NCBI GenBank assembly: GCA_944363925.1
Contig: CALVVS010000005.1
Coordinates: 1-39,651 of the forward strand
Origin: an uncultured Bacilli bacterium
GTDB lineage: Bacteria > Bacillota_I > Bacilli_A > RF39 > UBA660
Direction of reading: 5' to 3'
DNA length: 39,651 nucleotides
The notes beneath the pieces were generated by a model. The model worked only from the letters and a program-made list of their open reading frames with translations. It did no database searches and had not been told where the DNA came from. Position 1 is the first letter of the stretch. Each line of letters begins with the position of its first letter. A program made the position numbers and the translations under genes. Below, one piece after another: positions 8,318-9,293 of the stretch.

Positions 8318-9241
8318 CTATTCAATAATGTATGGGTTATTTTGGGTTCCTGTACCCCCTGTGATTTGGACCTCAGAAGAGAGATATAAGGAAGGCCGAA
8401 CCGCATAATCGTCATTGCCATAGTAGTCGACACGGCCGTTTGAATACACACGAAATGTATGGTAAGAGTCACCAGCACAAGGGGTTAAAATCCACCAATA
8501 ATCATTTATATACATCCATGTTGTATTTTTACAACTACTATAATTATTGTTATTTAAGCTAAATGAACCACAATTACTTTTATTACTATTACTTCTTATA
8601 TATTCTGATACTGTGACCAAAGCTACTTTTCCGTTCCATTTTTTATAATTTTCATTACTTATTGTATTAGCCATATTATTATTATCATTTGTTACAGCAC
8701 CAATACTCCAATCTTTGGCTACGATCTGACTTTTAGCAGTCGCATTTAAACCATTATAATACGTTCCATTTAAGTATGTATTTAAGCTTGCTGGTCTGGC
8801 CCAATTATTATTTCCGATTGTATCCCAATACTGTTCTCCTATACTTGCTATCCTCATTATTTTTATTGTCATATCTGGTTCTATTGATACTATACGCCAG
8901 CCAGCTTCTTCATTATTAAATGTTACATAATTATTGGGGTTGGCTCCTTTATAAAAATATCTTCCATCATCGTACTCATCTTTATATAGTCCATCTCCTG
9001 AAGTTACTACTTTATCTTCAAAAATGGTGCCATCTAATGGTCCAGGTGGAAAGCACTTGTTATATAGCTCATCAATAGCTCCTTGTACATCAGCGCTTTT
9101 TAGGCCACTTTCACTATTATCATATATTACATTATTGCTTGGAAAATAGGTGGCGGCTTTGACGGTTATGGAACCTACTAATAAGGCGGTAAATAGACAA
9201 AGAAAAATACGGTTTTTAAATAGTTTTTTGATTTTATTCAT
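8318..9241 (-). CDS. Secreted DUF6273/FGE-like protein with DGR-variable-region-like C-terminus
   Basis: About 307 residues. A signal peptide (basic MNKIKKLFKNR, hydrophobic core, TVKA-AT cleavage) is followed by a short segment ending DVQGAIDELYNKC that is typical of a secreted family in gut Bacillota. The main domain follows the DUF6273/formylglycine-generating-enzyme-like plan: GWRIVSIEPD, then SLNTYLNGTYYN, then KVALVTVSEYI, then WWILTP and finally AVRPSLYL. The C-terminal part between WWILTP and AVRPSL is rich in Asp, Tyr, Asn and Gly codons of the NNY type and is visibly more GC-rich than the rest. That is the look of a variable region in a diversity-generating retroelement target; no reverse transcriptase is in the window. 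Start: the ATG at 9247 is too close to the AGAGAGGT site, so ATG 9241 is preferred. Probably a surface binding protein controlled by the divergent regulator (inference). Confidence 0.82.
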   Translation of the reverse strand: MNKIKKLFKNRIFLCLFTALLVGSITVKAATYFPSNNVIYDNSESGLKSADVQGAIDELYNKCFPPGPLDGTIFEDKVVTSGDGLYKDEYDDGRYFYKGANPNNYVTFNNEEAGWRIVSIEPDMTIKIMRIASIGEQYWDTIGNNNWARPASLNTYLNGTYYNGLNATAKSQIVAKDWSIGAVTNDNNNMANTISNENYKKWNGKVALVTVSEYIRSNSNKSNCGSFSLNNNNYSSCKNTTWMYINDYWWILTPCAGDSYHTFRVYSNGRVDYYGNDDYAVRPSLYLSSEVQITGGTGTQNNPYIIE

Positions 9242-9293
9242 TTTCATACCTCTCTTTTTGACAATTTTTTCCTATTTTTATGATTACAATTTT

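Follow-up and report, generated by a model that had tools for sequence, protein, structure and literature searches.

Judging from its codons, the C-terminal end of one gene in the window (i.e. the whole stretch of 39,651 nucleotides that was analysed, contig C5 of a genome assembly of an uncultured RF39 gut bacterium of the Bacilli) is a variable region (VR) derived from a diversity-generating retroelement (DGR), and it bears the signature of such an element itself. It quite probably forms part of a dispersed family of DUF6273 surface proteins that is written in trans by DGRs, the copy in the window now most likely being dormant.

The window gene and its variable region

The relevant features of the window are listed below (TR, template repeat).

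8318..9247, (-) strand: DUF6273 target-family gene, 309 aa (ORF; Pfam DUF6273 E 8.8e-8; AlphaFold2 mean pLDDT 88; ~45 paralogs in its own genome)
9170..9238, (-) strand: N-terminal hydrophobic helix, residues 4-26, predicted secretion signal or membrane anchor (model helix H4-26, of low confidence there)
8378..8836, (-) strand: DUF6273 domain, residues 138-290 (Pfam match; fold matches to C-type-lectin-like structures)
8405..8479, (-) strand: VR core, residues 257-281, CAGDSYHTFRVYSNGRVDYYGNDDY (entropy peak; codon signature relative to L005/L015; aligned to TR1, the G002 TR and other TRs)
8393..8404, (-) strand: conserved VR 3' end, AVRP, GCGGTTCGGCCT (place of the template's IMH-like end; IMH function presumed)

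In the protein, the hydrophobic N-terminal helix is followed by a VQGAIDELY helix and then by the C-terminal DUF6273 domain with the VR. From its sequence, the product is a predicted secreted or membrane-anchored DUF6273 protein, presumably displayed at the surface. No sequence match for it was found in the PDB, and a fold search was used with the AlphaFold2 model, which was built with 46 family members. The best solved match was the DUF6273 domain of 9qa6 (Z 16.6, 188 residues, 2.9 A), the matched part being the DUF6273 N-terminal domain of the Thomasclavelia ramosa IgA peptidase (PMC12402451). C-type-lectin-like domains came next (Z 5-6.7), and the BFVD matches include many phage DUF6273 proteins. 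A preliminary description, made from the window alone, had considered a DUF6273 or FGE-like host fold plausible, and both the Pfam match and the modelled fold support a C-type-lectin-like host, with the VR located at the C-terminus of the C-type-lectin-like domain.

The same description had drawn attention to a stretch rich in NNY codons and in GC between WWILTP and AVRPSLYL, and ORF, motifs and codons are indeed as it described them. Directly after LTP, 22 of 25 codons are NNY at 44% GC, no 25-codon stretch of any other window gene being equally extreme in both values; over the 34-codon VR stretch the GC content is 47%, compared to 32% in the rest of the gene and 31% in the window. It had also warned, rightly, that D, Y, N and H codons always end in a pyrimidine. 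NNY runs in other window genes reach up to 16 codons versus 12 in the VR, for which reason the length of the run by itself was not counted as evidence for a DGR; the weight for a DGR origin is carried by the comparison with homologues.

In this comparison, which depends on the alignment to a few paralogs, ten unambiguous template-N positions and the 12 framework codons interleaved with them were compared between the window and the paralogs L005 and L015. At the variable codons bases 1-2 differ in 10/10 cases while base 3 is kept in 10/10, whereas the framework codons differ at bases 1-2 in only 2/12 (Fisher p = 1e-4 versus the variable codons). Changed codons of the gene body retain base 3 only about half of the time. 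The window gene therefore has the variable codons of a DGR-derived VR (i.e. bases 1-2 change and the pyrimidine third base is kept), and all variable codons of its VR are still NNY. At the AVRP position TR1 has GCGGTCCGTCCG and TR2 has GCGGTCCGCCCA, so that the GCGGTYCG-like 3' end of the window VR is conserved with the TRs and may fulfil the role of an IMH.

DGR cassettes and targeting in trans

As previously noted, neither a reverse transcriptase (RT) nor a TR is located within the window; both are found on other contigs of the assembly (G000; 1.44 Mb, 111 contigs, 76% complete). The remote or trans-acting DGR that had been predicted on these grounds exists in this genome in the form of two cassettes, each with a TR, a MutS_I-like ORF, bAvd and RT, alongside many targets of the trans type.

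Contig C2, loci L002/L085: cassette 1, in the order target gene, TR1, MutS_I-like ORF (136 aa), bAvd (116 aa), RT (377 aa)
Contig C13, loci L001/L106: cassette 2, in the same order with TR2, MutS_I-like ORF, bAvd, RT (338 aa)

In protein form TR1 reads LSPNSGNSNNVFNVNNNNGNFNNNNANNTNAVRP. Both RTs have RVT_1 matches and carry, besides YMDD, the DGR-type [IVL]GxxxSQ in place of QGxxxSP (IGNMTSQ on C2, IGGLSSQ on C13). The bAvd model PF22296 is above its cut-off in both cassettes (Pfam 3.9e-12 and 1.4e-10), with NF033474 matches below theirs. The MutS_I-like ORF between TR and Avd (L085:2950-3360 and L001:2667-3026, both on the (-) strand) resembles MutS domain I only, its Pfam match being clear on C2 and below cut-off on C13. 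A third RT of this genome (L003, G000:C31; RVT_1 match, 578 aa) is of another kind.

The VR of L021, which adjoins TR1 in cassette 1, differs from TR1 at 17/35 adenines and at 0/67 other bases, and with this A-only TR/VR pair, the DGR-type RT and the Avd beside RT and TR, the genome holds all three DGR features that were looked for. L046 differs from TR2 at 13/30 adenines and 2/69 other bases, and L048, on another contig (C38), has 16/30 adenines and 3/66 other bases changed, with a small deletion. In G002, a sister species, four contigs, two of which (C20 and C39) are without an RT match, carry four VRs that fit one TR sequence (17-20/36 adenines changed, versus 0-1/66 other bases), so that targeting in trans is well supported in this lineage by sequence comparison. 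G002 carries three copies of one TR sequence with ~128/129 bp in common (L146 on C1, L157 on C4 and L155 on C2). On C1 and C4 the TR copy is located downstream of a target gene whose tail is duplicated; neither copy has an adjoining RT or Avd in the flanks examined, and one has a MutS_I-like ORF. These TR copies appear homogenised and would have to act in trans.

Of the 39 genomes searched, 18 have relatives of the C2 RT, and all of these belong to the genus. The DNA identity between the C13 cassette (L106) and its counterpart in G012:C21 (L107, L365) is ~96%, with flanks at 84.8%, and that between the C2 cassette (L085) and G002:C2 (L086, L368) is 94.5%, with flanks at ~78-87%. Contamination was rejected as the source of the cassettes, as the C13 flanks and the C2 Ffh (83-84% identity to five relatives) are more diverged than the cassettes, so that both contigs look native and only the cassettes look exchanged. 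From these identities, it seems that the two DGR cassettes move between species at fixed sites.

A dispersed family of fresh, ageing and decayed targets

Searching the window protein against its own genome gave 52 matches at E <= 1e-20, and 48 aligned ORFs cover >180 residues (one being a double count from overlapping loci), which puts the number of paralogs at ~45. The target family was found in 40 of the 44 genomes of the genus. Its entropy peaks in the VR (residues 257-282), with a mean of 2.8 bits over residues 255-282 versus 1.1-1.5 elsewhere. Besides these paralogs, the short ORFs L055-L060 (C29, C35, C45, C27, C8) hold only the N-terminal leader of the family (~residues 4-66) with other or truncated C-termini.

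Pairwise comparisons show hypervariation confined to the VR: L011 and L020 share 91% identity over the body versus 53% over the VR, and the 12 VR codons that differ between L006 and L015 are all NNY with base 3 kept in all of them, giving 0 third-position changes in the VR versus 36 in the body. Eight fresh paralogs have a fourfold third-base identity of 0.79 for the VR versus 0.55 for the body (p 1.7e-13 by Fisher's test, with pairs that are not independent). Silent sites of the VR are thus more alike than those of the body, as is characteristic of a shared template that has overwritten the old sequence. A group of four (L005, L006, L015 and L016) shares a fresh framework, the TR of which is absent from the assembly. 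Within a single genome, the family covers fresh, ageing and decayed VRs.

The window gene itself is flanked by a small ORF adjoining pilC on one side and by an xre/ABC-F pair on the other. G052 (63%), G004 (55%), G018 (50%) and G012 (39%) have a copy at this site and G053 has a fragment of one; in two further genomes, G047 and G050, the ABC-F gene is followed by the small ORF and pilC, and no target gene was matched between them. Going by this synteny, the locus is common to part of the genus and the target gene comes and goes. No relatives of the window protein were found in viral contigs, which gives no sign of a phage origin of the window copy, and no prophage context was seen for the family.

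Is the window copy still being rewritten?

A current DGR target would be expected to have a VR framework that is younger than its gene body, which is not the case for the window gene. Its fourfold-site identity to the fresh group is 0.575 in the VR versus 0.571 in the body (p = 1); the silent divergence of the VR thus equals that of the body, which leaves no sign of recent rewriting, unlike in about a dozen paralogs. Relative to L015, base 3 differs at 6/12 framework codons. The earlier reading as a DGR variable region stands as far as the anatomy is concerned, and the codon signature (10/10 versus 2/12) agrees with it; recent rewriting is not supported.

It had also implied a near-identical template differing at adenines only, and here the outcome was negative: no template matching the window VR in this way was found in the own assembly, in scans of the genus or in a set of 71 distinct TRs collected from related Bacilli and from viral contigs, nor did an ungapped A-tolerant scan of the RT loci give a clean one. 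Non-A mismatches amount to 22/63 with TR1 and 19/62 with the G002 TR (19-22 over the whole VR for the nearest TRs), the best TR having 12 within the first 66 nt. No TR of the own genome, as far as its 76% complete assembly goes, matches the window VR at its non-A positions. Against the TR library the window VR scored above all 300 codon shuffles, but one random window stretch scored equally, and this score was set aside as support.

Two other explanations were weighed against a dormant, DGR-written copy. The VR could be a fast-evolving lectin loop, shaped without any DGR, either by diversifying selection of the ordinary kind or by gene conversion among paralogs. The loop is indeed the most variable part across the whole family, amino acids encoded only by NNY codons (D, Y, N, H, C) make the codon signal look stronger, and runs of 12 NNY codons are not rare in the window. 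However, base 3 is kept at 10/10 changed variable codons although silent framework sites changed, and A-only TR/VR pairs and DGR cassettes occur in the same family of the same genome, by which this explanation is already disfavoured and, in our view, highly improbable.

The VR could also still be written actively, from a template (in a third cassette, or as a TR without an RT) that is private or was not assembled and lies in the missing part of the genome. Such a template may exist there, since the assembly (in 111 contigs) lacks about a quarter of the genome and has no template for the L005/L006/L015 group either, despite the fresh framework that this group shares with L016. The G002 TR copies without an adjoining RT or Avd, and the fact that the variable codons of the window VR all remain NNY, also fit an active state. 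Against it stand the drift at base 3 of the framework, the equal silent divergence of VR and body, and a search of the 44 genomes of the genus, in which the framework with <=3 mismatches occurs only as the window VR itself. Overall, an active state is considered rather unlikely. One genome per species was compared, the syntenic copies of other species having an overall identity of 39-63%; within this comparison, the window copy is probably a dormant (archived) target.

In the course of events proposed for such a dormant copy, a remote DGR cassette would transcribe an AAY-rich template, which the bRT/Avd complex would copy with errors at adenines, after which the cDNA would replace the 3' end of a target paralog, presumably by retrohoming. 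In this way ~15 residues of the presumed ligand-binding face would be changed. The template of the window copy would have resembled the one behind L005, L006 and L015, and the framework of the copy would afterwards have drifted at silent sites, leaving an archived target.

Relation to known systems and implications

The mechanism of DGRs is already known, and what is notable is how large a dispersed family this small genome holds. In Treponema denticola, one TR/RT core serves several distant VR genes in trans and leftover targets exist (PMC4891356). Targets kept after loss or mismatch of the template are thus shared with that system, which however has 2-7 targets, compared to ~45 family members here, and differs in target family and host; in the present genome the RT is accompanied by a MutS_I-like ORF plus bAvd. 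Cyanobacterial DGRs likewise have scattered C-type-lectin (CLec) VR paralogs with a graded TR/VR similarity that includes remnants, and exchange DGR components between genomes; their targets are often regulatory multidomain proteins, in contrast to the small, single-domain, secreted or anchored proteins of this reduced Bacilli genome (PMC7517822).

DUF6273 targets with a C-type-lectin-like fold, in which the C-terminal end of the domain holds the VR, are also known from Faecalibacterium prophages and as tentaclins, but the Faecalibacterium DGR is phage-borne and acts on receptor-binding proteins, whereas the present family is chromosomal and bacterial, with remote DGRs (PMC11792537, PMC10743442). 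Incomplete DGR loci with remote targets are shared with Thiohalocapsa PB-PSB1, a multicellular bacterium with putative antigen sensors, where trans diversification was explored by reads and not, as here, from assembly sequence alone (PMC10907252). In the DGR papers searched, nothing on RF39 and nothing relevant on Tenericutes was found.

The presence of a VR signature should not be equated with present activity. With this caution, the results show that a small, uncultured lineage of Bacilli harbours a DGR whose dispersed target family is unusually large. It is conceivable, though doubtful, that the genus keeps an archive of VR paralogs (up to ~50 per 1.0-1.5 Mb genome) which is rewritten in turn by horizontally exchanged cassettes with different templates, in which case dormant copies would be reserve display genes that a new cassette could reactivate. 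As fresh to decayed VRs occur here beside two apparently mobile cassettes, the spread of DGR targets and their fate after template replacement become testable from sequence.
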